A stretch of DNA of 64,000 nucleotides from Bolinopsis microptera (lineage: Eukaryota; Ctenophora; Tentaculata; Lobata; Bolinopsidae), in NCBI RefSeq assembly GCF_026151205.1, contig NC_087080.1:17025337-17089336 (forward strand), written 5' to 3'. Positions within the stretch are counted from its first letter, which is position 1, and each line of letters begins with the position of its first letter. Both the position numbers and the translations under genes were made by a program. Under the pieces are notes generated by a model. It ran no database searches. It saw only the letters and a list, made by a program, of their open reading frames with translations, and was not told the origin of the DNA. Below are positions 1,083 through 53,309 of this stretch, in pieces.

Positions 1083-3616
1083 GGGGGGGGGGGCCAATGA
1101 CTACCAATGGAGACTTTTGGGGACTAATGGGGACTAAAAATCATGGGGACTAGAGGTCAACTCGTTGACGTAATTCACTTTTTTTTTTTTTGTTGGGGAC
1201 TGGCCCGTGGTACCAGCCAATGTTTACTCAAAAAATATATATAATATCAATGGTAATAAGAAAATCATCCCCGTGGGGCACATGCATAAATACAAAATGT
1301 TAAGGAAATCTCAAACTATTCAATTTAGACTCTACCGGTAAAGTATGCAATGAAGGTTTATAACTTAAAGTTTAATTTTCTAATGGTTAATAGGTAAAGA
1401 TTAAAAACAGTAAAACAAGACTGAGCACTTCAAAATTTGTAGAATTTGTAACTTGATTTGAAATACGCGGCGATAAAAAATAATGTCCAATGTTGGCAGT
1501 GTAAATGATGAGATATGCGACGTTTATTGAGTGATGCATAAGTGTGTGCATATAATCTAAGATGTAGAGACAAGGTTATTATCGGCATTTTGGTTTATGT
1601 TACGCTTTGATTTTCTTAGTCCTGTTATACAAAATAACATGAAATTAGGCCATTCGTCTTCGATGTTTTCATTTTGCTGATCGATGAGCATAGTTTTTAT
1701 ACAAGTTTTGTAAATGTTCAGGTTAAATAGACTAGGCGGGGAAGTTGCTGCAACATTATATCGGTTTATTGCTAATAATGGACCTTTAAAAAATACTGAG
1801 TTGTTGTAGGGGTGTTGACCATACTTTTCTGACCATTGTGTAGTGAGAATAGAATCCGTGTTAGTATTAAATAATGGTGCGCTTTTGGGAATTGTTTTCT
1901 TGAGAGACAATGGTACTAGATTAGGAAAGTTTTTCAATTTATGCATTAAAATGAGTGCGTTCTTTACAATGATACTGTGTACTGTCAATATTTTATGTAA
2001 ATAAAAGCCAGACTTAGTACTTGCTGGGGGGATACCGTCCTTGTACCAGTAATTGACGAAACCAGGTAATACTGCACGAAGGCCCATTTTCTGTTTTACA
2101 AAAAGTGATTCAATATGAGACTTAGCAGCAAAACCCCATACAAGGCTGCAATAATTAAGGTGTGACTGCACAAAACTTTGATAAATTTGAAGACGTGCTT
2201 CGAGAGGCAGATATTTTTTAAGTTTGTACATGACTCCTATGTATCTGGACATTTTCATTTTCATGGCAGAGATATGATAGGACCAGTTTAGTTTATCATC
2301 TATTATAACTCCTAAAAAACGGGCTTCTGTTTTTCTCTCAATTGTGACACCAGAAATTGTCACATCACGATAATTAAGATTCCTTTGTCGAGAGAAGATC
2401 ATATAATTTGTTTTCTTAAGGTTGAGAGCTAAACCATTATTATCTACCCACTTAACTAAAGCATCGCTAAGAGTTATTAGTTTATCGTAAACTTCATTAA
2501 GATTTTCTCCTATCAGGAAGATGTTGGCATCATCTGCGTACATAATGAAATTGGCTATATCTGATATTTGAGGCAGGTCGTTTATGTAGATTATAAAGAG
2601 TAAAGGTCCTAATATTGACCCTTGAGGCACGCCGTATAAAATTTGGTTGGTTGAAGATTTTGACGAGCCAATTGATACAAACTGTTTCCTGTTAGTGAGA
2701 TATGACTTGAACCAGTTTAAGGCTTGACCTCTTATGCCGTAATGGTCCAGCTTGCGCAAGAGTATGGAATGATCCACAAGGTCGAAAGCTTTGCTGAAGT
2801 CGATTAAAAGAAGTAAAGTTACCTGCTTTTTAGACATTGAATTAAGAATGGTGTCTTTTGCGTTGAGAAGAGCATGTTCACAAGACCTACCCGGGCGAAA
2901 ACCGTATTGGTTTTCACATAGTATGCTGTATTTATCTAAAAAACTTAAAACTCGGTTATGCATTAGCTTTTCAAATACTTTAGAGAATGAAGCAAGAAGA
3001 GATATTGGTCTGTAATTTTTTATGTCAGATTTAGATCCACCTTTGTGAATTGGGACCACCTTCGCTTCTTTCAAAGCCTGTGGAAAGATCCCCTGTTCAA
3101 AAGAACTGTTGACAACGTGGGCTAGTACACTAGTAAAACTGGGACAACTGTTAGCGATTTTTAGAGGTTCAATTTTAGTGTCTAGTGTGGCTTTATTCTT
3201 AAGCAGGTTTATGACGTCCTCAATTTCTGTGGCAGTGACTGGCTTTAGGTAAATACTACTTGGAGTGGCGTTGCGAAGTGTGCTCTGGGTTCCACCAGGA
3301 TCAAAAGTGGTCCTACTACTAATTTCATTTGTCCCCATAAGTCCCCAGAATTTTTGACAGTTATTTATGGTTTTCAAGTTAGTTTAATAACGATACGATC
3401 GAGATGTTTTGTCCAAGATAAGAGTAGGATAAATCTAAATGGGGACTAATGGAGACTTTTGGGGACTAATGGGGACTAAAAATCATCTAAATGGGGACTA
3501 ATGGAGACTTTTGGGGACTAATGGGGACTAAAAATCATGGGGACTCGGGGTAAAATCGTTGACGTAATTCCCCAAGTCCCCAAAAGTAGTCATTGGCCCC
3601 CCCCCCCCCCCCCCCC
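1083..3616. mobile_element. TIR element with poly-G termini, GGTATA TSD, containing a nested retroelement
   Basis: The left end is an 11-G run followed by CCAATGACTAC; the right end is GTAGTCATTGG followed by a long C run, so the termini are inverted copies. The element is bounded by GGTATA on both sides (1077-1082 and 3617-3622), a plausible 6-bp target duplication. Inside both ends is the same G-rich motif (GGAGACTTTTGGGGACTAAT) ending in GTTGACGTAATTC, present once at the left and twice in tandem at the right. The middle (about 1179-3400) is a reverse-transcribed insertion with a T13 run at 1179-1191. No transposase is visible, so this looks like a MITE invaded by a retroelement. Confidence 0.6.
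1557..3377 (-). CDS. Non-LTR retrotransposon reverse transcriptase, 5'-truncated (CR1/Jockey-like)
   Basis: A 606-residue open frame with reverse transcriptase motifs in order: NYRPISLLASFSKVFEK, QYGFRPGRSCEHAL, the catalytic-aspartate block LLLLIDFSKAFDLVDHSIL, GVPQGSILGPLLFIIYINDL, the YADD box (MYADDANIFLIG), and the thumb-side motif RFLGVIIDDKLNW. No apurinic endonuclease domain precedes it; the frame opens at a KFW-type segment just upstream of the RT, so the copy is 5'-truncated. The T13 run at 1179-1191 would be the poly(A) tail of this minus-strand element, leaving a 3'UTR of about 365 bases. The frame is intact over 600 codons, so the copy is fairly young. CR1 versus Jockey assignment is inference. 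Confidence 0.85.
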   Translation of the reverse strand: MKTINNCQKFWGLMGTNEISSRTTFDPGGTQSTLRNATPSSIYLKPVTATEIEDVINLLKNKATLDTKIEPLKIANSCPSFTSVLAHVVNSSFEQGIFPQALKEAKVVPIHKGGSKSDIKNYRPISLLASFSKVFEKLMHNRVLSFLDKYSILCENQYGFRPGRSCEHALLNAKDTILNSMSKKQVTLLLLIDFSKAFDLVDHSILLRKLDHYGIRGQALNWFKSYLTNRKQFVSIGSSKSSTNQILYGVPQGSILGPLLFIIYINDLPQISDIANFIMYADDANIFLIGENLNEVYDKLITLSDALVKWVDNNGLALNLKKTNYMIFSRQRNLNYRDVTISGVTIERKTEARFLGVIIDDKLNWSYHISAMKMKMSRYIGVMYKLKKYLPLEARLQIYQSFVQSHLNYCSLVWGFAAKSHIESLFVKQKMGLRAVLPGFVNYWYKDGIPPASTKSGFYLHKILTVHSIIVKNALILMHKLKNFPNLVPLSLKKTIPKSAPLFNTNTDSILTTQWSEKYGQHPYNNSVFFKGPLLAINRYNVAATSPPSLFNLNIYKTCIKTMLIDQQNENIEDEWPNFMLFCITGLRKSKRNINQNADNNLVSTS

Positions 3617-5738: not shown

Positions 5739-6597
5739 AGCAGATCATTGTTGTGACAGCTGGTCAAAGAAGGGAGGGGCTTGTGATCCTTACTGTTTAT
5801 ATTTTAGTGTCTGATTTGAAGTGAGAGAACCTCACATAGTTCTATAAGCCTGAGCGGTAAAGATTGGATTGATAGAGGAGTATGGTATAATATAGTCCAT
5901 GTTTTGATTAAACACAGTCCATATCAACAGATTAATTCCACCACATTTCAGGGAGATGAGACAGACTAATTTTCAAAATATCACACGAGTTCCAACTAAC
6001 TACCATCAACTATTTTTGAAGTTACAAAATTACAAAAATACCGGCCAAAAGTGATGAAAAATGTTCATGGGAAATTATTTTATTCTACTTTTAAGGGCCG
6101 ACCAAACTTCAGTATTATTATTATAGACGGTGGACGGTGGTACGGGCAAGGTAGGACAGCTGGTGAGTATGTCAACAGGTTCTCAATTACTCAAACAGTA
6201 ATGATGGCAACTCCTGTAACACATCTGGAGTTCAAGTGTACTTCTTAAGGCAGAATTTTCCCTACATTCCTTAGATTGTTTATTATAACTGGAAGTCAAG
6301 GATACGGAGTATGGCCAGACTATCAGACATTTCATACTGCATTTCATACTATATGTATATATATCTAATGTTGAGCCAAGCTAATGGAGTCATGGACATC
6401 AAGTGGTCACCTCCCTTTCAATGAAATAAGTCTCCAGCACTTAGGGCCCCACTTAGGCCCCCCACTTACCCCCACTTACCCCACTTACCTCTCAATAGAT
6501 AAGAGTCCCAGACTCCACATGCTCATAGTCAGAGTGACATTGTCAACAAACGCGCTCAGGTCACATACCACGTCCCCTGCAAGCCACTTGTCCGCAA
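5739..6597. other. Spacer between two tandem arrays; no gene seen
   Basis: Short open frames at 6051-6248 and 6384-6665 show no recognisable motif. A short CCCACTTA(C/G) run lies at 6440-6487. Confidence 0.4.
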
Positions 6598-9500
6598 TAG
6601 TGGTGATAATAGTGGTCGGTATCACTACTGCTCCTGTAGGAATTGTTATAAAATACACTTGGTAGTAAAATAGTGGTGATAATAGTGGTCGGTATCACTA
6701 CTGCTCCTGTAGGAATTGTTATAAAATACACTTGGTAGTAAAATAGTGGTGATAATAGTGGTCGGTATCACTACTGCTCCTGTAGGAATTGTTATAAAAT
6801 ACACTACTTGGTAGTAAAATAGTGGTGATAATAGTGGTCGGTATCACTACTGCTCCTGTAGGAATTGTTATAAAATACACTTGGTAGTAAAATAGTGGTG
6901 ATAATAGTGGTCGGTATCACTACTGCTCCTGTAGGAATTGTTATAAAATACACTAGTAAAATAGTGGTGATAATAGTGGTCGGTATCACTACTGCTCCTG
7001 TAGGAATTGTTATAAAATACACTTGGTAGTAAAATAGTGGTGATAATAGTGGTCGGTATCACTACTGCTCCTGTAGGAATTGTTATAAAATACACTTGTC
7101 CGCTATAGTGGTGATAATAGTGGTCGGTATCACTACTGCTCCTGTAGGAATTGTTATAAAATACACTTGGTAGTAAAATAGTGGTGATAATAGTGGTCGG
7201 TATCACTACTGCTCCTGTAGGAATTGTTATAAAATACACTAGTAAAATAGTGGTGATAATAGTGGTCGGTATCACTACTGCTCCTGTAGGAATTGTTATA
7301 AAATACACTTGGTAGTAAAATAGTGGTGATAATAGTGGTCGGTATCACTACTGCTCCTGTAGGAATTGTTATAAAATACACTTGGTAGTAAAATAGTGGT
7401 GATAATAGTGGTCGGTATCACTACTGCTCCTGTAGGAATTGTTATAAAATACACTCGGTAGTAAAATAGTGGTGATAATAGTGGTCGGTATCACTACTGC
7501 TCCTGTAGGAATTGTTATAAAATACACTTGGTAGTAAAATAGTGGTGATAATAGTGGTCGGTATCACTACTGCTCCTGTAGGAATTGTTATAAAATACAC
7601 TTGGTAGTAAAATAGTGGTGATAATAGTGGTCGGTATCACTACTGCTCCTGTAGGAATTGTTATAAAATACACTTGGTAGTAAAATAGTGGTGATAATAG
7701 TGGTCGGTATCACTACTGCTCCTGTAGGAATTGTTATAAAATACACTTGGTAGTAAAATAGTGGTGATAATAGTGGTCGGTATCACTACTGCTCCTGTAG
7801 GAATTGTTATAAAATACACTTGGTAGTAAAATAGTGGTGATAATAGTGGTCGGTATCACTACTGCTCCTGTAGGAATTGTTATAAAATACACTTGGTAGT
7901 AAAATAGTGGTGATAATAGTGGTCGGTATCACTACTGCTCCTGTAGGAATTGTTATAAAATACACTTGGTAGTAAAATAGTGGTGATAATAGTGGTCGGT
8001 ATCACTACTGCTCCTGTAGGAATTGTTATAAAATACACTTGTCGCTAATAGTGGTGATAATAGTGGTCGGTATCACTACTGCTCCTGTAGGAATTGTTAT
8101 AAAATACACTTGGTAGTAAAATAGTGGTGATAATAGTGGTCGGTATCACTACTGCTCCTGTAGGAATTGTTATAAAATACACTTGGTAGTAAAATAGTGG
8201 TGATAATAGTGGTCGGTATCACTACTGCTCCTGTAGGAATTGTTATAAAATACACTTGGTAGTAAATAGTGGTGATAATAGTGGTCGGTATCACTACTGC
8301 TCCTGTAGGAATTGTTATAAAATACACTTGGTCGCTATAGTGGTGATAATAGTGGTCGGTATCACTACTGCTCCTGTAGGAATTGTTATAAAATACACTT
8401 GGTAGTAAAATAGTGGTGATAATAGTGGTCGGTATCACTACTGCTCCTGTAGGAATTGTTATAAAATACACTTGGTAGTAAATAGTGGTGATAATAGTGG
8501 TCGGTATCACTACTGCTCCTGTAGGAATTGTTATAAAATACACTTGGTAGTAAAATAGTGGTGATAATAGTGGTCGGTATCACTACTGCTCCTGTAGGAA
8601 TTGTTATAAAATACACTTGGTAGTAAAATAGTGGTGATAATAGTGGTCGGTATCACTACTGCTCCTGTAGGAATTGTTATAAAATACACTTGGTAGTAAA
8701 ATAGTGGTGATAATAGTGGTCGGTATCACTACTGCTCCTGTAGGAATTGTTATAAAATACACTTGGTAGTAAAATAGTGGTGATAATAGTGGTCGGTATC
8801 ACTACTGCTCCTGTAGGAATTGTTATAAAATACACTTGGTCCGCTAATAGTGGTGATAATAGTGGTCGGTATCACTACTGCTCCTGTAGGAATTGTTATA
8901 AAATACACTTGGTAGTAAAATAGTGGTGATAATAGTGGTCGGTATCACTACTGCTCCTGTAGGAATTGTTATAAAATACACTTGGTAGTAAAATAGTGGT
9001 GATAATAGTGGTCGGTATCACTACTGCTCCTGTAGGAATTGTTATAAAATACACTTGGTAGTAAAATAGTGGTGATAATAGTGGTCGGTATCACTACTGC
9101 TCCTGTAGGAATTGTTATAAAATACACTTGGTAGTAAAATAGTGGTGATAATAGTGGTCGGTATCACTACTGCTCCTGTAGGAATTGTTATAAAATACAC
9201 TTGGTAGTAAAATAGTGGTGATAATAGTGGTCGGTATCACTACTGCTCCTGTAGGAATTGTTATAAAATACACTTGGTAGTAAAATAGTGGTGATAATAG
9301 TGGTCGGTATCACTACTGCTCCTGTAGGAATTGTTATAAAATACACTTGGTAGTAAAATAGTGGTGATAATAGTGGTCGGTATCACTACTGCTCCTGTAG
9401 GAATTGTTATAAAATACACTTGGTAGTAAAATAGTGGAGATAATAGTGGTCGGTATCACTACTGCTCCTGTAGGAATTGTTATAAAATACACTTGGTAGT

Positions 9501-11632
9501 AAAATAGTGGTGATAATAGTGGTCGGTATCACTACTGCTCCTGTAGGAATTGTTATAAAATACACTTGGTAGTAAAATAGTGGTGATAATAGTGGTCGGT
9601 ATCACTACTGCTCCTGTAGGAATTGTTATAAAATACACTTGGTAGTAAAATAGTGGTGATAATAGTGGTCGGTATCACTACTGCTCCTGTAGGAATTGTT
9701 ATAAAATACACTTGGTAGTAAAATAGTGGTGATAATAGTGGTCGGTATCACTACTGCTCCTGTAGGAATTGTTATAAAATACACTTGGTAGTAAAATAGT
9801 GGTGATAATAGTGGTCGGTATCACTACTGCTCCTGTAGGAATTGTTATAAAATACACTTGGTAGTAAAATAGTGGTGATAATAGTGGTCGGTATCACTAC
9901 TGCTCCTGTAGGAATTGTTATAAAATACACTTGGTAGTAAAATAGTGGTGATAATAGTGGTCGGTATCACTACTGCTCCTGTAGGAATTGTTATAAAATA
10001 CACTACTTGGTAGTAAAATAGTGGTGATAATAGTGGTCGGTATCACTACTGCTCCTGTAGGAATTGTTATAAAATACACTTGTAGTAAAATAGTGGTGAT
10101 AATAGTGGTCGGTATCACTACTGCTCCTGTAGGAATTGTTATAAAATACACTTGGTAGTAAAATAGTGGTGATAATAGTGGTCGGTATCACTACTGCTCC
10201 TGTAGGAATTGTTATAAAATACACTTGGTAGTAAAATAGTGGTGATAATAGTGGTCGGTATCACTACTGCTCCTGTAGGAATTGTTATAAAATACACTTG
10301 GTAGTAAAATAGTGGTGATAATAGTGGTCGGTATCACTACTGCTCCTGTAGGAATTGTTATAAAATACACTTGGTAGTAAAATAGTGGTGATAATAGTGG
10401 TCGGTATCACTACTGCTCCTGTAGGAATTGTTATAAAATACACTTGGTAGTAAAATAGTGGTGATAATAGTGGTCGGTATCACTACTGCTCCTGTAGGAA
10501 TTGTTATAAAATACACTTGGTAGTAAAATAGTGGTGATAATAGTGGTCGGTATCACTACTGCTCCTGTAGGAATTGTTATAAAATACACTTGGTAGTAAA
10601 ATAGTGGTGATAATAGTGGTCGGTATCACTACTGCTCCTGTAGGAATTGTTATAAAATACACTTGGTAGTAAAATAGTGGTGATAATAGTGGTCGGTATC
10701 ACTACTGCTCCTGTAGGAATTGTTATAAAATACACTTGGTAGTAAAATAGTGGTGATAATAGTGGTCGGTATCACTACTGCTCCTGTAGGAATTGTTATA
10801 AAATACACTTGGTAGTAAAATAGTGGTGATAATAGTGGTCGGTATCACTACTGCTCCTGTAGGAATTGTTATAAAATACACTTGGTAGTAAAATAGTGGT
10901 GATAATAGTGGTCGGTATCACTACTGCTCCTGTAGGAATTGTTATAAAATACACTTGGTAGTAAAATAGTGGTGATAATAGTGGTCGGTATCACTACTGC
11001 TCCTGTAGGAATTGTTATAAAATACACTTGGTAGTAAAATAGTGGTGATAATAGTGGTCGGTATCACTACTGCTCCTGTAGGAATTGTTATAAAATACAC
11101 TTGGTAGTAAAATAGTGGTGATAATAGTGGTCGGTATCACTACTGCTCCTGTAGGAATTGTTATAAAATACACTTGGTAGTAAAATAGTGGTGATAATAG
11201 TGGTCGGTATCACTACTGCTCCTGTAGGAATTGTTATAAAATACACTTGGTAGTAAAATAGTGGTGATAATAGTGGTCGGTATCACTACTGCTCCTGTAG
11301 GAATTGTTATAAAATACACTTGGTAGTAAAATAGTGGTGATAATAGTGGTCGGTATCACTACTGCTCCTGTAGGAATTGTTATAAAATACACTTGGTAGT
11401 AAAATAGTGGTGATAATAGTGGTCGGTATCACTACTGCTCCTGTAGGAATTGTTATAAAATACACTTGGTAGTAAAATAGTGGTGATAATAGTGGTCGGT
11501 ATCACTACTGCTCCTGTGGGAATTGTTATAAAATACACTTGGTAGTAAAATAGTGGTGATAATAGTGGTCGGTATCACTACTGCTCCTGTAGGAATTGTT
11601 ATAAAATACACTTGGTAGTAAAATAGTGGTGA
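6598..11632. repeat. 73-bp satellite array, about 69 monomers
   Basis: The monomer runs AGTGGTGATAATAGTGGTCG, then GTATCACTACTGCTCCTGTA, GGAATTGTTATAAAATACAC and a linker TTGGTAGTAAAAT. Sequence identity is very high throughout. Length variants sit almost wholly in the linker: a shortened form (CACTAGTAAAAT), ACTACTTGG, and a TTGTCCGCTAT / TTGTCGCTAAT form near 7098, 8040, 8330 and 8840. Each monomer contains an imperfect dyad, AGTGGTGATA against TATCACTACT, around an 11-base loop. Open frames here are by-products of repetition. The array ends abruptly at about 11632 within GTGGTGATAT. Confidence 0.97.
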
Positions 11633-14600
11633 TATCTCTAACACTTCATTTAACACATCTATATCTATATCTGTGTTAAGTGGACGGTATAAAATATACA
11701 ATATCATTCTACTTCAGCAAGCTTTTAAAATTCCAATTTGAATGCATGGTGAATTATTGAAATCTTTCAGAGCTGCTCCAAACAGAGTTCCACCATCGCC
11801 GGTACGTGTTTATGTAAAAGTAGCACAATATCCTACTTTTATGCTATCATGATACTAGTATTAGTAGTAGCAGTAGGTAGAAGTAGTAATATTGCATTGG
11901 AGCGTGTCCGATGGTATCGTAATATGTGAAATTGTGTGAGGCGTGTTCGAGAAGGGGGGATCAGGTATCAAGTGCCGTACGTGACGCCCCCCCCCCCCCC
12001 CCCCCCCCCACATCTTGAGGTTTTACTGTAAGTTTTAGATTTGTTTATACACGTCCCCGCCACAATAGCTAATTTGATATCTTTTGTGTGGACACAAGTA
12101 CAAGTGTCTCTACTAATTCTGGGCAGCAAAGCACATTCGATTAATCTGCAGAAAAATGATCAAATCGGAGGATAAAGCGCTCACTTATTTGATTGGAATG
12201 ACAGGAATTAAAGTGGAATGTAGGACACGTGACCAACTTCAGATTATCGTAACTAACATATTTCTACAGAACTGCTTCTCCGAGCTTAATCCTGATGATG
12301 GGGCCGTATAAGGGTGAAGATAAAGAATGTGTTTTATATTCCGGTATGCAGAATATAAACGATTGGAAGTATTAAATTCAAAAGTGACAAGGATGGGATA
12401 AAACTATTCTATAGTTATATAATATATAAAACTATTAGGATAAATTTAATCCTGCAGGACGGCAATTTAGTCATTAAATCAATTTTGGTTGTTAACAGTT
12501 AAAATATCAGGGCATAAGTCTTAGACAGAAGTCTAAATTAAGAATACCGCGTACGGCGTACTATACACGTACGGCGTACACAGTGTGTAATGTGCAGTAG
12601 AGGTACAGTGAATATTGTACATGAACCAGGTGGTCCATGTAAAAAGGGCTAGTTTAATGTCATTACCCATTAAGTTACGTCACAATCATATCACTAAAAC
12701 ATATCCTAAGATTGAATTGTAGGGTTCTATGAGAGCTGCTGTAACTGAGCAAACCAGATAAATTCCAGACCCATTTGTTAGAAAGTAGACCCTTGTTAAG
12801 AGAGGGAGTGTGGTAAGGTCGGACCTACTATACTATACAGACTTATATACTAGACCCTACCAGATGGGGTATGTGAAGTGTGGTTTCTATGATGTGTGGA
12901 ACATTACCAATGACTATTGTTTCAACAAGATATAGTATTACAGTATCATTACTGATAGCGACAAAACGTTTACTATACTACTGTTAACTGTATCACTACT
13001 ACTATTACTGTACCACAGTGTTATTAAGGAGGAACAAGGAATTGTGGAGTTTCTGAAGGTTGTAGTTTTTATGCGTCAAGTTTAAATATGTCATTGAAAT
13101 AAATTGTTTCGATATTATTGTATGATCTCCAAACAAAAATTACCAATACATGATTGTAAATAGCTTTGAATTGGCAAAATTAATAACTCAACAAATTGAA
13201 ATTGAGTCACTTTAGGTTATACAAACGTTGGCTTATTTGTACTTAATTATGTATTATACACATAACCACAGTCTACATTACATTATAATATTATATTATG
13301 GTAAAGTTATAATATTGAATCGGAATACTCTGCCACAATCACAGAATCACTGTAAAACCTTGGCCTTCAATGAGGGTTAGTCTAAAGATTTATACATCTT
13401 GAATTGCCAGGAATCTCACTCTGAGTGAGAGAAAATAGCCTATTATGAGACAAGAGAAGAGGATCCCTCTACTACAATAAATTCCTTCTGTAACGTTCTC
13501 AATAGATATGTAGTGTTTTAATTAGTTCGAAACGCTGTTGAATAATCCAACCTGAAAGTACCTAAAGTCTGCGAATTTGGCGAATTGTTCAGCTTGTGGT
13601 GTTTTTGTCTCAAAATTTGCCGCACACAAACAAGTTTTAGTGTTTAGGCAGGAATGGCACTTCTTGCGCAATATAATATTGCATCTTACGAAATGAAGCT
13701 GCTCAATCGCCAATCGAAAGTTTGCGTCAATTTGACTAACCTGAGATATTTTGCTGAATTCTATATTAATTTAAGGCAAATGATCTGGCAACGGAAAATT
13801 AAAATGAAAAGACCAGATACTAATTGCTTCATTGATAGACATAATTTGTCACTGTACTTGGAACAAAAGAATATAAAGCATCAAGTTCTAGGTATTTGAT
13901 GATATGTAGTTTCATTGTTTCCGCCATTCCACTGACGACGAGACAATGTCGAGAAAAACATGTTTTTAGGAGAAAGATGCATTGTTGTAGAATAGCTTGG
14001 CAACATCATAGATTGTTACTGTCTACTTTTTTACATTATTAGAACAGGAGAATAAATAAAATAAAATAATCTCCGCTCCCTTAAGAACTTGATTCTCCCT
14101 AATAATCTCCCTCAACAACTAATTCTTAATTTGTATTCCTTGCAAAAGTCTCACCGCATTTATTTAACTCTTTTATTCAACAATTTATTTAGTGACATTA
14201 TCGTCGCATTACAGCAGTCGACGAGACACTTAGTTAAATTGCTAAGCTGACAAATAACGTCAGGAACATATTATTATGAGGGACATATTACGTCCCATTG
14301 TCCTTTGCCTATTTACCAGCCTGCAGTTTTATTATTTAAATAAAAACCCTAACTTGTCAGCTCTGTAGTCAAGATCTCTAGTGTAATAGCATAATAAGTT
14401 ACTGCGACCTGCAGTCACCTATCTTTAGTGTAAACATATTTTTCAAGGAAGGAAGTTCCCAGACTTTGTTCTCTCAGCTGGGGATCTCACTAACAGAAGC
14501 CAGACAAACCTGCACGAAGCCTGGACTAATATCCCTACAGTTTAGAGTGGTACTAACTACTAGGATAGACAATGATCGTACCTCTTGGGTCAAGGTTACT

Positions 14601-20345: not shown

Positions 20346-21592
20346 TAGGCGTCAGACCTTTTGATACAATAGATCATGGTACATTACTTGTCAAATTACA
20401 GGGCTATGGGATACGTGGGGTGGCAAATGATCTTATAAAAAGTTACTTAACAAATAGATCACAATATACTGAAGTTGTTGGTGAGAAATCTGACGCCTTG
20501 AAAATACAGTTTGGAGTCCCTCAGGGTTCGATTCTTGGACCTCTCTTATTTCTCCTATATATTAATGATATCGCCAACAGCTCCAGTTTGGGATCATTTG
20601 TCACCTTCGCTGATGACACCAATATATTTGTGACTGGGAAATCTAAAAAGGAGGCATATATGCGTGGTAATTCTCTTTTAGCTAGTTTATATTCCTACAT
20701 GCGAGCAAACAAACTCCATGTCAACTTGTCTAAATGCTGTTTCATTCACTTTAAACCAGCATCGTCCTCCCAGACTGACAATAATTCTGAATATACTCTA
20801 ACCATTGATAACTTTCCAATAAAACAAGTTGCATCTGCTAAGTTTCTGGGAGTCGTCATCGATGAAAAGCTAACCTGGGAAGAACATATAAAATCACTTA
20901 GGCGTTCTCTCAGCCATGCAACATCAACTCTCTGCCGCCTACGCTGCTCCCTCCCAGATTTCTTACACCGCCAGTTGTATTACACTCTATTTGAATCACA
21001 CCTCTCCTATTGTATCACGGTTTGGGGTGGGGCAGCCAAAACTCGTATAAGTTCTGTATTCAAAGCACAAAAATATTGTCTCAGGGTACTGTTTGGCGAC
21101 AGGGAGGCATACCTAGATAAATTTAAGACCTGTGCTCGTGCTCGACCGTTTGGCAACCAAAATCTGAACAAAAAATTTTTCTTGAAAGAGCACACGAAAC
21201 CTTTGTTCAAGGAACACGGAATACTTGCCGTCCAAAACCTGTACACTTACCATTGTTTCCTTGAGCTCTATAAAATCATGAAATTCCGTGCTCCGATTTC
21301 CCTCCATGAAAATTTCACCTGCTCAAGTAGGAAACCCACCCTTATACTAAGCCAAGCAGACCCCCCTGACAACTTCAATAGCAGAACGACTCGTATTTGG
21401 AACGTAATTGTGCCTAAGCTTGGTATACGTGACTACTGTCTAAGTGTGGCCTGCCTGAAGTCTAGGATGAAGCAATCACTGCTCGTCAACCAGCATAACC
21501 ATGCTGATCTTGATTGGACAAACAAAGATTTCGAATGCTCTAATCTAAATTTTGACATTAAGTCTACCCTAGGGTCCACACATCCAAAATGA
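20345..21592 (+). CDS. Non-LTR reverse transcriptase, 5'-truncated (Jockey/CR1-like)
   Basis: The frame is open from about 20345 (PFDTIDHGTLLVKL, the first catalytic-aspartate block) through GVPQGSILGPLLFLLYINDI, the FADD box (VTFADDTNIFVTG), KFLGVVIDEKLTWEEHI and HLSYCITVWGGAAKTRI, ending at 21592. The first ATG-like start within it (20420) is internal to the RT, so this is a fragment lacking endonuclease and fingers. The RT spans roughly the first 180 residues and the remainder is the family-specific C-terminal part. AATAAAG at 21758 in the 3' flank may be the element's polyadenylation signal. It differs in sequence from the RTs at 1.6 kb and 37 kb. Confidence 0.8.
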   Translation, partial: LGVRPFDTIDHGTLLVKLQGYGIRGVANDLIKSYLTNRSQYTEVVGEKSDALKIQFGVPQGSILGPLLFLLYINDIANSSSLGSFVTFADDTNIFVTGKSKKEAYMRGNSLLASLYSYMRANKLHVNLSKCCFIHFKPASSSQTDNNSEYTLTIDNFPIKQVASAKFLGVVIDEKLTWEEHIKSLRRSLSHATSTLCRLRCSLPDFLHRQLYYTLFESHLSYCITVWGGAAKTRISSVFKAQKYCLRVLFGDREAYLDKFKTCARARPFGNQNLNKKFFLKEHTKPLFKEHGILAVQNLYTYHCFLELYKIMKFRAPISLHENFTCSSRKPTLILSQADPPDNFNSRTTRIWNVIVPKLGIRDYCLSVACLKSRMKQSLLVNQHNHADLDWTNKDFECSNLNFDIKSTLGSTHPK

Positions 21593-35985: not shown

Positions 35986-35989
35986 TAAA

Positions 35990-36024
35990 TTAGAATTAGA
36001 ATTAGAATTAGAATTAGAATCAAA
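35990..36024 (-). repeat. (TTCTAA)n 3' tail of the CR1-like element
   Basis: Plus-strand reading is five tandem ATTAGA units, that is TTCTAA on the element's strand. It lies downstream of ORF2 on the element strand, where a CR1/L2 tail is expected. Confidence 0.65.
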
Positions 36025-36449
36025 TTTACACAGCAATACAATAAGAATAAAAATAATTTAAGAAGCTTCAATCTGCTGTGCAGGACATTCAAGTCAGTCG
36101 AAAACTGTTAGCAGAACACCCTTCTAGGGACATAAGGATATAGTATGTAAAACATAATGAGTAATAAATTAATGAGTGATAAAATAAGATATGATTTAAC
36201 AGTGAACTGTGGGCATGAAGGTAACAATTAAGATTACATAGATGCCCACTTTGGGATTACGTTAGTAATGTTATTTACAGTTATATACAGAGAAGTATAG
36301 AACAATAATAGATTGGCAATGATAACAAATGGGAACGAATAAAGGAGATGTTTAAAGTTCTATACTTCTGGAAAAACCTAGGTCATATATAACGCAGGGG
36401 GCCTTTCCACCCGACAAAAACTCCAGCACCATAAAATTTGTTTCAGTTG

Positions 36450-39440
36450 TCACATAGCTAGAGTGTAGAAATAGTCGAAACTATTGTTTATTTCATAGGA
36501 TGAGACTCCTTGAATTACATCTGACATAAATTTAGATTTCATACATTGTGAGAATTTTACACTACATTCTATAGTCCTTATGTTCTCTGGAATTGTATTC
36601 CAACATTTTGCACCTAAATATGTAAAGGTTTTGTGTGTTCTGGATTTGTGAATATAAAGGTTGCACCTCTCAGCATCACGTGATCCTCCGGATACATAAG
36701 AAAATTTATCTGTGAATGATGATGGTGCAGCCTCATTAAGAATTTTATACATATACGTTGATAGATGGAGTTGTCTTCTTTAAGTGTAAGGGTAACCACT
36801 TCATATTTCGATATACATTTACTGATGGTTCCTGCCAATGAACATCCAGAGCAATTTTTGCTACTTTCTTGTATAATATATCAAGAGAATTAAGTTTGGT
36901 TTTGGCAGCCCTACACCATATTATATCCAGGTAGTCAAATTGGGGGAGCATAAGAGCATTTACAAACATTTTTCTATATTTCAGTGGAAGAAGATTTTTC
37001 GACCTGTATAATGCCCCTATTCTTTTAGCAATTTTTGATTTCACATAATCAATATGGTCTTGAAAGTTCAATAAATTGTCTATCATGAGACCTAAATATT
37101 TTTGAGATTTAGTTTCTTCTATAAATAGGCATTCTTTTTCCAAATCCAGAGGGATTGACAACGTGTCCAGATTAGGTGATCTATCAAATACAATGAATGA
37201 AGATTTTGCAGCATTTAGTCTTAGCTTGTTGATTCTAAGCCATTCATACACAATTTTCATATCCTTAATTACATTCTCATATATGCCTCGGGAAATGTTA
37301 TCAAAATATAGTGCACTATCATCTGCAAATAAGTAAACAGTAGATTGTGTGCAATTTCTACTGAGATCATTTATGAATAAACTAAATAGAATTGGTCCTA
37401 ATATGCTACCCTGTGGCACACCTGTTTTAACAGGGAGTGATGTGCTTACATTACCACGTATTTTTGTGTGTTGCTTTCTGTCCCCAAGGTAGCTTTTGAA
37501 CCACTTTATGACAAAGCCATCAACTCCATAATACTTAAGTTTTTTTAATAAAATATTATGGCTTACTGTGTCAAAGGCCTTTTTGATATCTAAGAATACA
37601 ATTGCAGGTTTCTTCTGTGATTCCTTAGACGTAAATATTTTATCAAATAGATTAAGCATTAGAAAAGTGGTGGAATGATCTTTTCTAAAACCATACTGAT
37701 GGTTGGTAAGCAGTTTATTTGTTTCAACATACTCTGTAAGCTGTTGGTTAACAAAATATTCTATGCATTTTCCAAGTAGGGGGAGTATGGATATTGGCCG
37801 GTAGTTATTTGGATCATTAGGGTCACCAGTTTTAAGAATTGGAGTGACTGATGCAATTTTACATGCCAACGGCATTGTTCCACTTTTCATACTAAGGTTT
37901 ATAATATGAGCTACTGGATCGATGATTTGGGGAATAATATACTTATATATTTTAATGGGCATGATATCGTTAATCGATTTATCTGATGGTATACTGAGTA
38001 TATATTCTTTTACTTGTTCAACAGTCACCTCTTCGAATACAGAGAGTTTACACTCTGTTGGAGGCGGCATATATTCTAGGAAGTCGTCTGAATCCTTTTC
38101 CTTAATCGATTCTTGTATTATTGTACCAACTGTGGCAAAATGCAGGTTAACTCCGTTAACATTTAAGTTGCTTGGGGAAGAGCTACTTATTTTTCCAGGT
38201 AAGTTTGAAGCATGTTTGATAGTTTTCCAAATGCCTTTTAAATCGTTTTTTGCACTTTTCACAGTAAGGTCCTGAACAATATTTGTACGTCTGTTTTCTT
38301 TGGATAATTTTGTAACATAGTTTCTTTGGGGACGATAGTTATCCCACGAAGTAGAGCATTTCTTATGTAGTTCACTTTTTCTGCATTTACATATTCCATT
38401 AATACAATTACACTTGAATTTGTTTAATTGTCCTAAACACTTTTTATACTTTCTGAAAAGCATCTTCTTCTTCCGTATTTCTGCCAACAGTTCTTTAGAG
38501 GGATTACAGAGAAAGTTACTATTACATTTTATCTGTTTAGGTGGACAGTAATTATCATACGATTCCTGGATGTGATGATTAAGTCCATCTAGGGCATGGT
38601 CTACATTAGTACAGCTTAGAATATTACTGTAGTTGCTGCAGGATCCCAGAAAATAGCTTAAGGCTTTCAGATTGTTTAAGGAGTGGTCTCTGATAAGAAC
38701 CTTCTGGAATTTACTAGCTTTACTTACTTTAAAGTCGAGAACACATTTGAGAGCTTGGTGATCTCCTATTCTATCATCAAGTACTTTACACTCTATGAAA
38801 TTAGAGTAACAGTTAGTCATGACAACATCTATTGTGCTCTGCGTTATCCTACCATCTAAGTTTGCAACTCTAGTAATTCCTGTAACAGTCTGTATCATTC
38901 CAAAGAGCTTCATTGTTATATCTAACTTTTTATAATCTAGATCAGATAAAGAGTTTTGGTTAACATTAACATCGCCAATCCATATTACTTTCTTACCCTG
39001 AAGTTTCATCATACATTCAGTCATATAATCAAGGAAAGTATCTAGGTGACAAAAGTTTTGTGATCTGTAGAAGCAGCAAATGTAAAGATTGGCATCCTTG
39101 AGTTGTATCCATATAGCTTCGATTTTAGAAATATCAGAGTAAGTTATATCTAAATTGAGTAATTTGTGGTTTACATTTTGGTTGATCAATATACCACACC
39201 CTCCTCTTCCTCTATCGTTAGGTCTATCACACCTTATAAAATCAAAGTTTAAGGGGAAGTTAAGTGTACTAGTGTCTATATCAGATTTAAGGTTTGTCTC
39301 ATTAATTCCAATTATGTCAAGCTTTTCGCGAAATATTAGCTCCTGTAGTTCGAGAGTTTTTGCCAGATTAGTCAGGCCACCCTGTATATTACATAGACCA
39401 AGAGAGAGATTATCGTTTATTGAGGTACGAATGTGGTAAT
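36450..39440 (-). CDS. ORF2: AP-endonuclease plus reverse transcriptase, one C-terminal frameshift
   Basis: The frame is open upstream of the first ATG/TTG near 39189 and begins around LGLCNIQGGLTNL. Endonuclease motifs: IIGINETNL, GRGGCGIL, VIWIGDVNVN and DRIGDHQAL (the GDH near the end of the domain). RT motifs: NYRPISILPLLGKCIEYF, QYGFRKDHSTTFLM, AIVFLDIKKAFDTVSHNILL, TGVPQGSILGPILFSLFIND, the FADD box in VYLFADDSALYF, and KYLGLMIDNLLNF. A Cys-rich stretch (CNCINGICKCRKSELHKKC) lies between the two domains, at residues of about 255-275 of the 39189-start frame. Near 36785 a single-base shift ends the main frame at LHLKK, and the true C-terminus continues in another frame to 36450 (MYKILNEAAPSSF to FDYFYTLAM). 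The frame is otherwise intact for about 810 codons, so the shift may be recent or an assembly error. Confidence 0.85.
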
Positions 39441-39623
39441 AATAAAGTTAAAAGGAGGACAAATCTATACGTTTCTTCTTCAAGCAATTTAAATAAAATT
39501 CATGACATTTAGTTTTATGTCATGCTGATTTATTTGTGACTTAATAATTTAAAATGTGATTCTTTGATAAAAGTATCAAATACTCATTTAACTACAGAAC
39601 TTTCTACAATCTGAATGGAGAGA

Positions 39624-41360
39624 CTAAGTTTGCTCATTGTGGGATAAATATTTTAAATGTTTCGCCAACCTGGCGATTCCCTTGATATTAAGGTGAACAT
39701 TATCTATTCCCTTTTTGAAAAATACCTGTTTCCTTACTCCAGTAACTCGGCTGGTAAATAGTCTATTGGTACGTTCTAAATCTATATAATTTAACCCATG
39801 GCTAGAGCAGGTGTTAGAAATAAACCTATTTAATTCGTTGATAACTTCATTTTTGTTATAACTGTTCCTAGGTAAAATATTTATAACTGAAATTCTTGCT
39901 CCAATAAACATTCCCCAAAGTATACTAAGTATTTGATCAATTCCTTCTGTTGCATTTTTCATAGAAATATAATTGTTACAGACAGAATCTACGTAGTTTG
40001 TGCCTGTTAGTATGAAAACACGCTTTACATCCTTTTTGTCCAGTTTTTTGAACTCCTCATCATGTAACAGCCTATTTAACATTTGAGCAGAGTTCGCTCC
40101 AGGGTAGAAGAACACCTTAGCTTTCTGCTTCCTCGAACTTAGTAGAGTTCCGTTGAGGTCCCTGAACATACTGCTGCTGATGTAGATGGTATCAATTGGC
40201 AGGTCACTTGGGATCTGTTCAAGTGAAGGAGGCGCTGCAGTTGACTTGGCTGAACTCTTAACTCTGGAATGGTGGACTTCAAATTCACTTTCGTTGTAGG
40301 GTACATATCCACTAGCTGTAGAAGGTGATTTTCTTGGTTGACTGCAGACAACTGGTTTGATAAGTCTAAAAGTTAAACTGATCCTTTTGTCTGTGCATAG
40401 TGGATCGGGACATAGTTCATGGTTGAATTGATGTTGGGACTTTTTGGACATAAGACATACATCTCCATGTTCTAAAATTAGGGAAGTCACCACTTGTCCT
40501 GTTTTGATTTCAGTCAACTGCATCATCCTGGAAGCACCAAGGGACACTGTTACAATGTACGAATCTTCTTCAATAAATTCTTCATTGTCACTATGAGCAG
40601 GCATATGTTCCTCTCCAGATTCATAGAGATTGACCAGAACACTGTTGTAGTTGTATTCTGGGAATAGCTCATCTAGAAAGGAACATATACTTGCCATGTA
40701 AGATCCCTGGGGGATCTTCTTTGGGTCATGCATTCCTCCACTGTACACGTAAGGATGTTTCCCAAAGTAGACTGATTTCCTGTTATGGAAGTGGTGGCTG
40801 AACTTTAATTCCTCAAATAAGATTTCAACAGAAAATTTGCTGAATGGTGCCTGTTCAATAAGTTCAACAGGTGTGATGGCGATATCAGGGATTTCATAGT
40901 CTGTAGTAAGGTCTGAACTTGACACAGGTGTTAAATCTAATCCTGCATAATATTCACCACTTCTTGGAATAACTGAGCCAGTGTCTGTAATCTCGCTGGT
41001 TGAAATGTCTATGTTGTTAGAAATAATTGATAGAGGTGCTTCTACATAGCCATCATCATCAATCAACAAAAATGATTCTGGTACCTCACATTCATTGTCA
41101 TACTGAATGTTATTGTTGCTGGAGTCCGTTTGCACTGATACATCGGAACACTTGTATTGAGCAATTGATTGGTTTCCACTTTGAGGCGAAATAGTTTCAT
41201 TAATCTCTGCTATTGTTTGTGAGGTTTGAACAATCTCCTCTAAAATGAACACTTTACGCTCCAGAAACTTCACGCGAGTTTCAAGATCTGAACAGTTTTT
41301 ACATTTTGTATCACATTCCATCAATAATTTGCCGAAAAATGTTTCCAATGAATCGTTCAT
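39624..41360 (-). CDS. ORF1: AlkB-type 2OG-Fe(II) oxygenase fused to SGNH-hydrolase-like domain
   Basis: 578 residues, intact from ATG. Residues 15-55 include CDTKC-x-NC and a short heptad-like segment (LETRVKFLERKVFILEEIV), possibly for oligomerisation. Residues about 175-335 match AlkB: N244-L-Y246-ESG249, the iron ligands H256-x-D258 (PAHSDNEE), a distal histidine (H314 in QHQFNHEL) and R326-x5-R332 (RISLTFR), the signature that binds 2-oxoglutarate. Residues about 388-572 resemble the SGNH/GDSL fold seen in many CR1 ORF1 proteins: block III is TGTN (452-455) and block V is D553-NV-H556; the nucleophile block reads ISSSM instead of GDS, so esterase activity is doubtful. It sits just upstream of ORF2 on the same strand, as ORF1 should. 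RNA demethylation is inferred from the AlkB family, not shown. Confidence 0.85.
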   Translation of the reverse strand: MNDSLETFFGKLLMECDTKCKNCSDLETRVKFLERKVFILEEIVQTSQTIAEINETISPQSGNQSIAQYKCSDVSVQTDSSNNNIQYDNECEVPESFLLIDDDGYVEAPLSIISNNIDISTSEITDTGSVIPRSGEYYAGLDLTPVSSSDLTTDYEIPDIAITPVELIEQAPFSKFSVEILFEELKFSHHFHNRKSVYFGKHPYVYSGGMHDPKKIPQGSYMASICSFLDELFPEYNYNSVLVNLYESGEEHMPAHSDNEEFIEEDSYIVTVSLGASRMMQLTEIKTGQVVTSLILEHGDVCLMSKKSQHQFNHELCPDPLCTDKRISLTFRLIKPVVCSQPRKSPSTASGYVPYNESEFEVHHSRVKSSAKSTAAPPSLEQIPSDLPIDTIYISSSMFRDLNGTLLSSRKQKAKVFFYPGANSAQMLNRLLHDEEFKKLDKKDVKRVFILTGTNYVDSVCNNYISMKNATEGIDQILSILWGMFIGARISVINILPRNSYNKNEVINELNRFISNTCSSHGLNYIDLERTNRLFTSRVTGVRKQVFFKKGIDNVHLNIKGIARLAKHLKYLSHNEQT

Positions 41361-41604
41361 GATGTTGAGTTGGTTGAGTTGGTTGTAGATAAAAAGATTG
41401 ATTGAAGTCGATTGAAGTTGATTGAAGTTGATTGAATAGATTTGATACCTCCAATTACATTACATTTTTGTCATGTTGGTCATTTTGGTCATACCTCAAT
41501 AAATGTAATAGATTTGTAGTGTTGTAATTAGTTTAAAATGATGGTAGTTGCTGAACATTTATAGCTTTCCATGGCTCTACTGCTAAGACTATTTGTGTGA
41601 GCTC

Positions 41605-50700: not shown

Positions 50701-51087
50701 ACTCGTCCTGCCAGAGATATTGAATACTGTCTCTGCTACTCTTAAATCTATCGACCAGGTATGTGCTTAAAAGTTATCCCAGTTTTCAAATGGAATGTAG
50801 CATTTTGTGAAAAGTTTCTTTTTGCCGTACCAGTGTCCAAAAGATGATTCACTGCACGTACCTGTCAAAGATATGCAGTACCAGATTATGAGCATATTAT
50901 CACCAGACTAACGTCTAACCCACATAATCACCAGGTTCCTATAGTCGGCAGCACAGTATCTCACTCCCAGCTAAAGAGATCTCTACACCTCTTCCTGCAC
51001 CATGTTATAAACACTTACCAGACCAGCATCTTCAATCTGACCCTCAGCAGCGAGACTACAACACTACTGCAGCAGTGCTGCATCTGA
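47765..51087 (+). CDS. NDC1: Nucleoporin NDC1 (transmembrane nuclear pore protein)
   Basis: Eleven exons: 47765-47848, 48033-48136, 48303-48401, 48546-48663, 48798-48851, 49065-49101, 49620-49804, about 49939-50403, 50562-50758, 50834-50857, 50935-51087; about 500 residues against about 670 in vertebrates. The N-terminal part is hydrophobic, with TM-like stretches in exons 1-4 and 7 (LQIILSILLPVLITLLPLTL; LLIIATNMIFSYFVSDCVNI W). The C-terminal part matches the NDC1 cytosolic domain: IRHSAITDLL, QDGHPVIW, and exon 9 EDKYGVVQLVLPEILNTVSA T, then VGSTVSHSQLKRSLHLFLHH. Phases agree at all junctions except before exon 8, where a one-base discrepancy near 49965 is needed. The second intron has a GC donor (TCTAG/GCAAGT). 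NDC1 anchors pores in the nuclear envelope. Its stop codon (51085) falls inside the first unit of the 54-bp minisatellite. Confidence 0.85.
49201..49556. mobile_element. MITE in NDC1 intron 6, TIR GGGGTCGTTCACAT
   Basis: Left end GGGGTCGTTCACATTACGTT ATC; right end GATTACGTAATATGTGAACG ACCCC, its inverted copy with a one-step indel (ACATTACGT versus ACATATTACGTAA). Inside are two C runs of over 20 bases (49244-49265 and 49478-49495) in the same orientation. About 356 bp, no coding capacity. Target duplication not clear (flanks GATA and ACAC). Confidence 0.75.
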
Positions 51088-52874
51088 AGTGTTGTCCTCA
51101 GCAGCGAGACTACAACACTACTGCAGCAGTGCTGTATCTGAAGTGTTGTCCTCAGCAGCGAGACTACAACACTACTGCAGCAGTGCTGCATCTGAAGTGT
51201 TGTCCTCAGCAGCGAGACTACAACACTACTGCAACAGTGCTGCATCTGAAGTGTCACCCTCAGCAGCGAGACTACAACTCTACTGCAGCAGTGCTGCATC
51301 TGAAGTGTTGTCCTCAGCAGCGAGACTACAACACTACTGCAACAGTGCTGCATCTGAAGTGTCACCCTCAGCAGCGAGACTACAACACTACTGCAGCAGT
51401 GCTGTATCTGAAGTGCTGTCCTCAGCAGCGAGACTACAACACTACTGCAGCAGTGCTGCATCTGAAGTGTTGTCCTCAGCAGCGAGACTACAACACTACT
51501 GCAGCAGTGCTGCATCTGAAGTGTTGTCCTCAGCAGCGAGACTACAACACTACTGCAGCAGTGCTGCATCTGAAGTGTTGTCCTCAGCAGCGAGACTACA
51601 ACACTACTGCAACAGTGCTGCATCTGAAGTGTTGTCCTCAGCAGCGAGACTACAACACTACTGCAGCAGTGCTGCATCTGAAGTGTTGTCCTCAGCAGCG
51701 AGACTACAACTCTACTGCAACAGTGCTGCATCTGAAGTGTTGTCCTCAGCAGCGAGACTACAACACTACTGCAGCAGTGCTGCATCTGAAGTGTTGTCCT
51801 CAGCAGCGAGACTACAACACTACTGCAGCAGTGCTGCATCTGAAGTGTTGTCCTCAGCAGCGAGACTACAACACTACTGCAGCAGTGCTGCATCTGAAGT
51901 GTTGTCCTCAGCAGCGAGACTACAACACTACTGCAGCAGTGCTGCATCTGAAGTGTTGTCCTCAGCAGCGAGACTACAACACTACTGCAGCAGTGCTGCA
52001 TCTGAAGTGTTGTCCTCAGCAGCGAGACTACAACACTACTGCAGCAGTGCTGCATCTGAAGTGTTGTCCTCAGCAGCGAGACTACAACACTACTGCAGCA
52101 GTGCTGCATCTGAAGTGTTGCCCTCAGCAGCGAGACTACAACACTACTGCAGCAGTGCTGCATCTGAAGTGTTGCCCTCAGCAGCGAGACTACAACACTA
52201 CTGCAGCAGTGCTGCATCTGAAGTGTTGTCCTCAGCAGCGAGACTACAACTCTACTGCAGCAGTGCTGCATCTGAAGTGTTGTCCTCAGCAGCGAGACTA
52301 CAACACTACTGCAGCAGTGCTGCATCTGAAGTGTTGTCCTCAGCAGCGAGACTACAACACTACTGCAGCAGTGCTGCATCTGAAGTGTTGTCCTCAGCAG
52401 CGAGACTACAACACTACTGCAGCAGTGCTGCATCTGAAGTGTTGTCCTCAGCAGCGAGACTACAACACTACTGCAGCAGTGCTGCATCTGAAGTGTTGTC
52501 CTCAGCAGCGAGACTACAACACTACTGCAGCAGTGCTGCATCTGAAGTGTTGTCCTCAGCAGCGAGACTACAACACTACTGCAGCAGTGCTGCATCTGAA
52601 GTGTCACCCTCAGCAGCGAGACTACAACACTACTGCAACAGTGCTGCATCTGAAGTGTTGTCCTCAGCAGCGAGACTACAACACTACTGCAGCAGTGCTG
52701 CATCTGAAGTGTTGTCCTCAGCAGTGAGACTACAACACTACTGCAACAGTGCTGCATCTGAAGTGTTGTCCTCAGCAGCGAGACTACAACTCTACTGCAG
52801 CAGTGCTGCATCTGAAGTGTCACCCTCAGCAGCGAGACTACAACTCTACTGCAGCAGTGCTGCATCTGAAGTGT
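51041..52874. repeat. 54-bp minisatellite, 34 copies, derived from the last NDC1 codons
   Basis: Unit: CCTCAGCAGCGAGACTACAA, CACTACTGCAGCAGTGCTGC and ATCTGAAGTGTTGT. The first unit is coding: in the NDC1 frame it ends LSSETTTLLQQCCI and the stop TGA. Later units repeat those codons and the stop downstream, so they would be 3'UTR. Common variants are CAACAGTGC, CACCC for TGTCC, and CAACTCTAC. Each unit holds the near-palindrome TGCAGCAGTGCTGCA. Since 54 is a multiple of three, other frames on both strands stay open for 550-630 codons; I regard these as artefacts. Confidence 0.95.
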
Positions 52875-53309
52875 TAATGTTTGACCTAAGAGTTGTTTTC
52901 TGCTCATTAGAAAATCAACAAGTCTAACCTGAAAAACTTCTCACTGGAACTTTTTTAATTGATTTCATCTCTATGGTAACGGGTTGTGCTTCTCAAAATT
53001 CTCAACATTTCGGATGACGTGTTTTATTCTATTTTAACTCAATTTATTTGTATTTTGTAAATTATTTGTTAAGAAATTTTACCGTATATAACGAATTTAA
53101 TTTTTTGGTAATCTGAGTAAGTTTCTTTATTTTCTTAGTATTGCTTTAACATGCTACGTCAGTACTGTAGACTGGAACTAAGATCAGTAATGTAAAACAG
53201 TGGCCTCCCCCCGGAAGGTGCTGGCTTGAGATTCCTCAAGCCAGAGTTATAGGCAGTATCTCTGTAATAAGATAGTTAAAGTTTCAATACTGATATTTGG
53301 CAGCCTTTC

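Follow-up and report, generated by a model that had tools for sequence, protein, structure and literature searches.

We analyzed a 64,000-nucleotide stretch of the genome of the ctenophore Bolinopsis microptera (assembly GCF_026151205.1, contig NC_087080.1, positions 17,025,337 to 17,089,336; here called the window), whose minus strand carries a whole copy of a non-long-terminal-repeat (non-LTR) retrotransposon of about 5.55 kb (35988..41538, with ends taken from other copies). The locus is a long interspersed nuclear element (LINE) with two open reading frames (ORFs), ORF1 followed by an ORF2 that bears a reverse transcriptase (RT), and its ORF1 joins an AlkB-type Fe(II)/2-oxoglutarate (2OG) dioxygenase domain to an SGNH/GDSL hydrolase-like domain. 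A 5′ untranslated region (41361..41538), common to other copies up to 41538, precedes ORF1 (39624..41360), which an earlier note on this DNA, made from the letters alone, had read correctly as an intact frame of 578 codons: it runs from ATG to TAG with no internal stop, and the plus strand of the same interval is full of stops. After a spacer (39433..39623) that differs between two families with a common ORF2, the endonuclease and RT of ORF2 occupy 36745..39432 (895 open codons in the window copy, assigned from RVT_1, Exo_endo_phos_2, and alignment with P0130 and P0131). The C-terminal end of ORF2 lies in another frame (36453..36791, located by tblastn pieces) due to one frameshift in the window copy, and the element closes with a 3′ tandem tail of a 6-bp unit, visible in the sequence (35988..36020). 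All of these features are on the minus strand.

The ends are shared among dispersed copies with different flanks. Among 12 other copies (L002 to L013), the match starts at window position 41538 in 7, at 41499 in 4, and at 41530 in 1, and the sequences upstream are unlike one another. At the 3′ side, copy L032 matches as far as 36001 and copy L033 as far as 35996, both points lying within the 6-bp tandem tail, which reaches about 35988 in the window. Because the frame sits in a dispersed element with common ends, a host gene was ruled out. No target site duplication was evident by eye at the window copy, at L003/L032, or at L010/L033. The base preceding the TTTTAA start (window 41538) is G in 10 of the 12 other copies (AG in 8), which is not so in the window copy.

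ORF1 places an AlkB-type domain between a predicted helix and an SGNH domain

The N-terminal part of ORF1 is predicted by AlphaFold2 to contain a long helix (residues 21 to 57, 41190..41300, pLDDT of about 71 to 85), putatively a coiled coil; this helix is the only candidate counterpart of the N-terminal coiled coil of type IV ORF1 proteins. The AlkB-type domain follows at residues ~159 to 337 (40350..40886). Where the earlier note had expected it, at residues 175 to 335, Pfam 2OG-FeII_Oxy_2 matched residues 202 to 332 (E value = 1e-20, 75.2 bits against a cutoff of 31.2), and the domain has the AlkB jelly-roll fold. Its motifs H256-x-D258, H314, R326-x5-R332, and N244-x-Y246 are all present. 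The SGNH domain covers residues 387 to 578 (39627..40202). Pfam Lipase_GDSL_2 matched residues 419 to 561 (E value = 1.6e-5), with 25.9 bits falling under the curated cutoff of 32.9; the domain has the catalytic Ser, Gly, Asn, Asp, and His of a type IV ORF1, and the two SGNH blocks noticed earlier are in place (TGTN at 452 to 455 and D553-N-V-H556).

We built a profile from 84 ORF1s of the family and compared it with the PDB. It matched ALKBH3 (7.5e-26) and ALKBH2 (7.5e-24) more closely than Escherichia coli AlkB (2.2e-6), ALKBH8 (3.6e-5), or ALKBH5 (0.0086). The subtype was called from these scores and from VIA Z scores, among homologues with solved structures, with VIA-align covering Foldseek's own matches only; by both measures, ALKBH2/3 are the AlkB homologues nearest to the domain. 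Sequence and fold thus point to an ALKBH2/3-like domain, and an ALKBH5-type eraser of N6-methyladenosine (m6A) is disfavored by profile scores and structure comparison.

The SGNH domain may have a history of its own. The match of ORF1 to the ORF1-encoded protein 4c1b, which we take to be the structure of the ZfL2-1 esterase, is weak (E value = 0.004 for the whole-ORF1 profile and 0.059 for an SGNH-only profile). Furthermore, the residue four before the catalytic Asn, a position found by counting rather than by residue alignment to ZfL2-1, is Leu in 85 and Met in 32 of 120 family proteins, so that the transposon-specific His of ZfL2-1 (H191) appears to be absent. Because this His is seemingly lacking and the structural match is weak, the domain could be a capture separate from the ZfL2-1 type. 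In a 756-amino-acid database protein, P0120, the SGNH domain is preceded by a pair of AlkB domains and also gives a weak match to the OSK family; used as a query, P0120 retrieved itself and three others, these aligned over 19 to 23% of its length.

The AlkB-SGNH ORF1 is repeated in the genome and in Mnemiopsis

We searched the whole 264.65-Mb assembly (232 contigs) and scored 75 of 813 first-look candidates, the window included, so that the counts are lower bounds leaning toward the best copies. At least 75 ORF1 matches were found, 72 of them without an internal stop and 3 with one, at identity levels of about 100, 60, 42, and 38%. The fusion was therefore not a one-off, and its presence in other genomic copies, on which the earlier note had made its proposal depend, was borne out. 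Fourteen matches span residues 1 to 576 of 578 at 93 to 100% identity and 8 span residues 1 to 574 at 59 to 60%; the remainder are incomplete or more diverged, with identities of about 42% and 38% in many of them. Thirteen of the 14 full-length matches of the window family were read, and all 13, spread over 9 contigs, were open. The remaining match (L014) is truncated at a contig end; the genome search showed no stop in it. From the 42% and the 38% families we read one member each in full. Both contain an AlkB and an SGNH domain in which the checked ligands and catalytic residues are kept, the sole exception being Thr at the N244 position in the member of the 38% family. The genome holds at least four diverged AlkB-SGNH families.

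In the protein database, 139 homologues of ORF1 were found at 1e-3, and among the 120 listed, the 7 that are named all belong to Mnemiopsis leidyi. Two Mnemiopsis gene models (P0053 and P0074) miss parts of the AlkB domain, which we tentatively take as gene-model or copy damage. Mnemiopsis proteins are also among the ORF2 matches, and because both ORFs match this genus, the family is most likely one of comb jellies. A scan of viral contigs gave 11 stretches that fit a pattern, none confirmed as a relative. The sizes of longest contigs common to ORF1 and ORF2 database matches number 9 in all; of these, 6 lie between 3 and 9 kb, where 2,000 jittered draws gave 1.05 on average and never more than 5. 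As evidence of linkage between the two ORFs this is suggestive only, and it is superseded by their direct linkage in the Bolinopsis genome.

The catalytic residues are conserved, and the AlkB domain is under purifying selection between families

Next, we aligned 121 proteins, namely the window ORF1 and the 120 listed homologues, omitting gaps from the counts. The iron ligands are conserved in 119/119 (H256), 119/119 (D258), and 119/120 (H314) proteins and the 2OG ligands in 120/120 (R326 and R332), so that the HxD...H and RxxxxxR ligand set of the AlkB family deviates in a single cell overall. Glu260, two residues after the Asp ligand in an HSDxE motif like that of the aligned ALKBH3 chain, is Glu in 118 of 119 proteins and Asp in 1. 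The AlkB signature described earlier thus held for the HxD, distal His, and Arg motifs and for the Pfam match; it did not hold for the Asn of N-x-Y (N244), which is not invariant, whereas N239 is (117/117). The SGNH residues are similarly kept (S397 121/121, G421 118/120, N455 119/119, D553 117/119, H556 115/118). These counts, together with the E values, exclude a chance match.

Positions conserved at 98% or more are 23 of 179 in the AlkB domain, 11 of 192 in the SGNH domain, 1 of 158 in the N-terminal part, and 0 of 49 in the linker. Mean pairwise identity is 42% in both domains (114 of the 121 proteins, 7 being dropped for coverage), and in the same set the AlkB and SGNH distances are correlated (Mantel r = 0.68, reached in 0 of 999 permutations), as expected if the domains travel together.

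We then compared the window family (W) with the 60% family (S), averaging over four copies of each (from 13 of W and 9 of S). For the AlkB domain, the nonsynonymous distance (dN) was 0.22 and its ratio to the synonymous distance (dN/dS), a rough figure at this divergence, was 0.12 (NG86) or 0.14 (YN00). The ratio was 0.17 and 0.15 for the N-terminal part and 0.18 (NG86) for the whole ORF1, and dN for the SGNH domain was 0.42. Ligand codons vary synonymously between families while the residue is kept (Asp 258, GAC/GAT; Arg 326, AGG/CGG/AGA). Within S (36 pairs), dN/dS was 0.03 for AlkB and 0.15 for SGNH; within W (78 pairs), it was 0.16 for SGNH, at very small distances. In AlkB, identity is 67% between W and S and 36% in the comparison with the 38% family; in SGNH, the figures are 52% and 40%. 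AlkB therefore does not evolve more slowly than SGNH in every comparison. The AlkB domain is under purifying selection between the two ORF1 families. The selection that the earlier note had suggested is therefore seen at this level and is not evident for AlkB among the youngest copies of W.

ORF2 is shared between families with different ORF1s

ORF2, in which an RT-bearing ORF was located at 36745 to 39189, lies downstream of ORF1 and combines an RT with an apurinic/apyrimidinic endonuclease (APE)-type endonuclease, matching RVT_1 at 1.9e-39 and Exo_endo_phos_2 at 0.0043, the latter under its curated cutoff; many homologous ORF2s contain PF03372 or PF14529. The best PDB matches of the RT are R2 and LINE-1 ORF2, followed by more distant RTs, matches that point to no clade. 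A CR1-like (CR1/L2) element, as the earlier note had called it, is suggested by the layout with two ORFs, by the SGNH domain in ORF1, and by the short tandem repeat at the 3′ end. In the alignment, residue 3 of both P0130 and P0131 falls at 39426, which puts their ATG at 39432 on the minus strand. Because the codon at this site (39430 to 39432) is ATT in 28 of 30 loci (L001 to L030, window included; the site was unlocated in the other 2), ORF2 in the window lineage probably starts by some means other than an ATG there. Among the four copies followed along ORF2 (the window, L031, L032, and L033), both ORFs are open in one, L032 (578 and 993 codons); the ORF2 frame stops after 182 codons in L031 and after 643 in L033. 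An ORF2 relative, P0153, is filed under a Tenacibaculum metagenome-assembled genome and is probably eukaryotic contamination of a bacterial bin.

In 11 of 12 S-family loci (L016 to L023, L026, L028, and L030), the ORF2 DNA is 98 to 100% identical to that of the window over the 145 to 1,193 bp followed, and in all 11 the match begins exactly at window position 39432 on the minus strand. It breaks off after about 150 bp in L019 and L023, and in L029 it was not seen in the fetched stretch. The ORF1s of the two families are 60% identical in protein and about 72% in DNA over the first kilobase, and the spacer has no match. Over the first ~1.1 kb of ORF2 (11 of 13 W copies and 8 of 11 S loci, omitting broken matches and short stretches), the mean difference is 0.4% within W, 1.1% within S, and 1.9% from one family to the other, and 7 differences are fixed; the corresponding dS of ORF1 is ~1.7. 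A near-identical ORF2 beside a diverged ORF1, with the break at the start of ORF2, is strong evidence of recent recombination between ORF1 and ORF2 modules. (Sources cited here and below by PMC number are represented by excerpts.) Such recombination has been argued for the Jockey superfamily (PMC4120745).

Elsewhere in the window, RT frames of other LINE families lie at 1557 to 3377 (minus strand) and 20420 to 21592 (plus strand), both about 33% identical to the ORF2 described here. There are also a long tandem array at 6596 to 11634 (~73-bp units, ~98% identical) and another at 51042 to 52875 (~54-bp units) with open frames on both strands.

Proposed function of the AlkB domain

We propose that this ctenophore LINE, with an ORF1 made of a putative coiled coil, an ALKBH2/3-type domain, and an SGNH domain, uses AlkB to clear the RT-blocking bases 1-methyladenosine (m1A) and 3-methylcytidine (m3C) from its own RNA, a reading to which we give an even chance. 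The ORF1 protein would assemble on the element's RNA, and its AlkB domain, with Fe(II), 2OG, and O2, would oxidize the methyl groups off m1A and m3C, which would otherwise prevent Watson-Crick pairing and stop reverse transcription; single-stranded cDNA might also serve as a substrate. The SGNH domain could target the ribonucleoprotein (RNP) to membranes, as proposed for the ZfL2-1 ORF1 esterase, and an enzyme held in the RNP would allow long templates to be reverse transcribed to the end even when damaged by alkylation or methylated by the host. The enzyme ABH3 has a preference for single-stranded DNA and mRNA, and the bases on which it acts, m1A and m3C, block polymerases (PMC11431407). Because the domain is ALKBH2/3-like and not ALKBH5-like, removal of m1A and m3C is favored over m6A evasion, and a demethylase role is plausible. 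Of the two marks named in the earlier note, m1A is thus the favored one and m6A is not.

Several observations weigh against this proposal. The mechanism is drawn from sequence, fold, and literature, and RNA binding by the ORF1 protein is assumed. ALKBH2, a double-stranded DNA enzyme, fits the structure model at least as well as ALKBH3, and the target could thus be DNA. The position of the 2OG-stabilizing N244 is variable (Asn in 49 of 117 proteins, Thr in 40, His in 25, and Ser in 3), and mean per-position conservation over the 121 proteins is equal in the AlkB and SGNH domains (0.53 in each). Within W, dN/dS is 0.70 for AlkB and 3.25 for the linker, on very few changes, so that the youngest copies show no sign of constraint. 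The between-family ratio is rough, dS being near saturation (~1.5 to 1.8), and dS was not computable for the SGNH and linker stretches. The openness of the full-length matches is partly a selection effect, the search scoring the best candidates, and in at least two more copies of the window family, ORF1 is split or broken (L015+L027 and L024+L025).

A role in DNA repair, in which m1A and m3C would be cleared from the nicked target or from single-stranded cDNA during target-primed reverse transcription, is unlikely; against it, the best sequence match is ALKBH3, and RNA is the nearer substrate, as ORF1 proteins normally (presumably) package RNA (PMC3905857). It is improbable that the domain strips m6A off the RNA so that the element evades host control based on this mark, a role proposed for an orchid Gypsy AlkB. 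In favor of such a role, AlkB enzymes can be promiscuous. Against it, m6A leaves base pairing unblocked. The orchid Ty3/Gypsy protein does demethylate m6A in single-stranded RNA in vitro (PMC9289625), but the ALKBH5 score of 0.0086 stands against 7.5e-26 for ALKBH3, and an m6A role is made less likely by the lack of a pairing block and by the help that human L1 receives from m6A (PMC7873242). Quite improbable, too, is that the AlkB fold is kept chiefly as a nucleic acid-binding module of the RNP, with catalysis secondary. The excerpts of PMC3905857 describe RepBase esterase-containing ORF1 proteins as having no RRM or other structural RNA-binding domain, which an AlkB fold would supply; a mere binder, however, would need no metal or 2OG ligands, and across the 121 sequences, whose AlkB domains average 42% identity (114 of them), these deviate in a single cell. 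A one-off passenger fusion or assembly artifact, in favor of which nothing was found, has next to no probability in view of the scored genome matches, the database homologues, which together rule out a one-off fusion, and a dN/dS well under 1 between families.

More tentatively, and with rather less than even confidence in the whole, the m1A/m3C demethylase may be built into the ORF1 RNP of a whole and probably old lineage of animal LINEs and be needed there, so that RNA methylation or alkylation would be a real barrier to retrotransposition in the hosts. Under this extension of our proposal, some families would swap complete AlkB-SGNH ORF1 modules between near-identical RT modules at the start of ORF2, and P0120 with its two AlkB domains would belong to the same picture.

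Comparison with known systems

SGNH ORF1s and retroelement AlkB domains each have precedents; what is new to us is that the two occur together, that the AlkB domain is of the ALKBH2/3 type, and that the element carrying it is a LINE. In the matches listed from the open-access literature, mostly titles and the starts of abstracts, and with subscription papers and Repbase outside the scope, no LINE with an AlkB domain was found, and the open-access excerpts naming both AlkB and ctenophores do not mention an AlkB-bearing element. ALKBH3 and ALKBH2 share the fold, the Fe and 2OG ligands, and the HSDxE motif (aligned for ALKBH3) with the element. To our knowledge, both are cellular repair enzymes without a retrotransposon context, coiled coil, or SGNH domain.

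Like the element described here, ZfL2-1 and CR1 type IV elements (PMC3905857 and PMC4120745) are two-ORF LINEs whose ORF1 carries a helix at the N terminus, which in ZfL2-1 is a coiled coil, and an SGNH domain at the C terminus, and the ZfL2-1 active-site residues Ser, Gly, Asn, Asp, and His (PMC3905857) are kept. Unlike them, the element has AlkB between helix and SGNH, and by counting, the H191 position holds Leu or Met in 117 of 120 proteins; in the excerpts of PMC4120745, which describes five ORF1 types, AlkB and dioxygenase have 0 occurrences. Among bdelloid rotifer elements, the GDSL esterase ORF3 of LTR retrotransposons (PMC5408684) is likewise a modular SGNH capture, with 0 occurrences of AlkB in that source's excerpts. 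RNA viruses of the Alpha- and Betaflexiviridae and Closteroviridae (PMC9289625) also are selfish RNA-copied entities with their own AlkB, in a viral context and likened here by description only. The nearest precedent is the AlkB ORF of orchid Ty3/Gypsy elements: the Phalaenopsis retrotransposon also has an AlkB-family demethylase domain (pfam13532), but it is an LTR element with a separate ORF2, ALKBH5-like, with m6A activity shown and an acquisition titled as recent (PMC9289625), whereas the Bolinopsis domain is ALKBH2/3-like by sequence and fold, is fused to SGNH in a LINE ORF1, and recurs in at least four diverged families in one genome. If our proposal is true, this would be the first LINE known to us with its own nucleic acid demethylase, and with it one can test whether retrotransposons are restricted by RNA marks that block RT.
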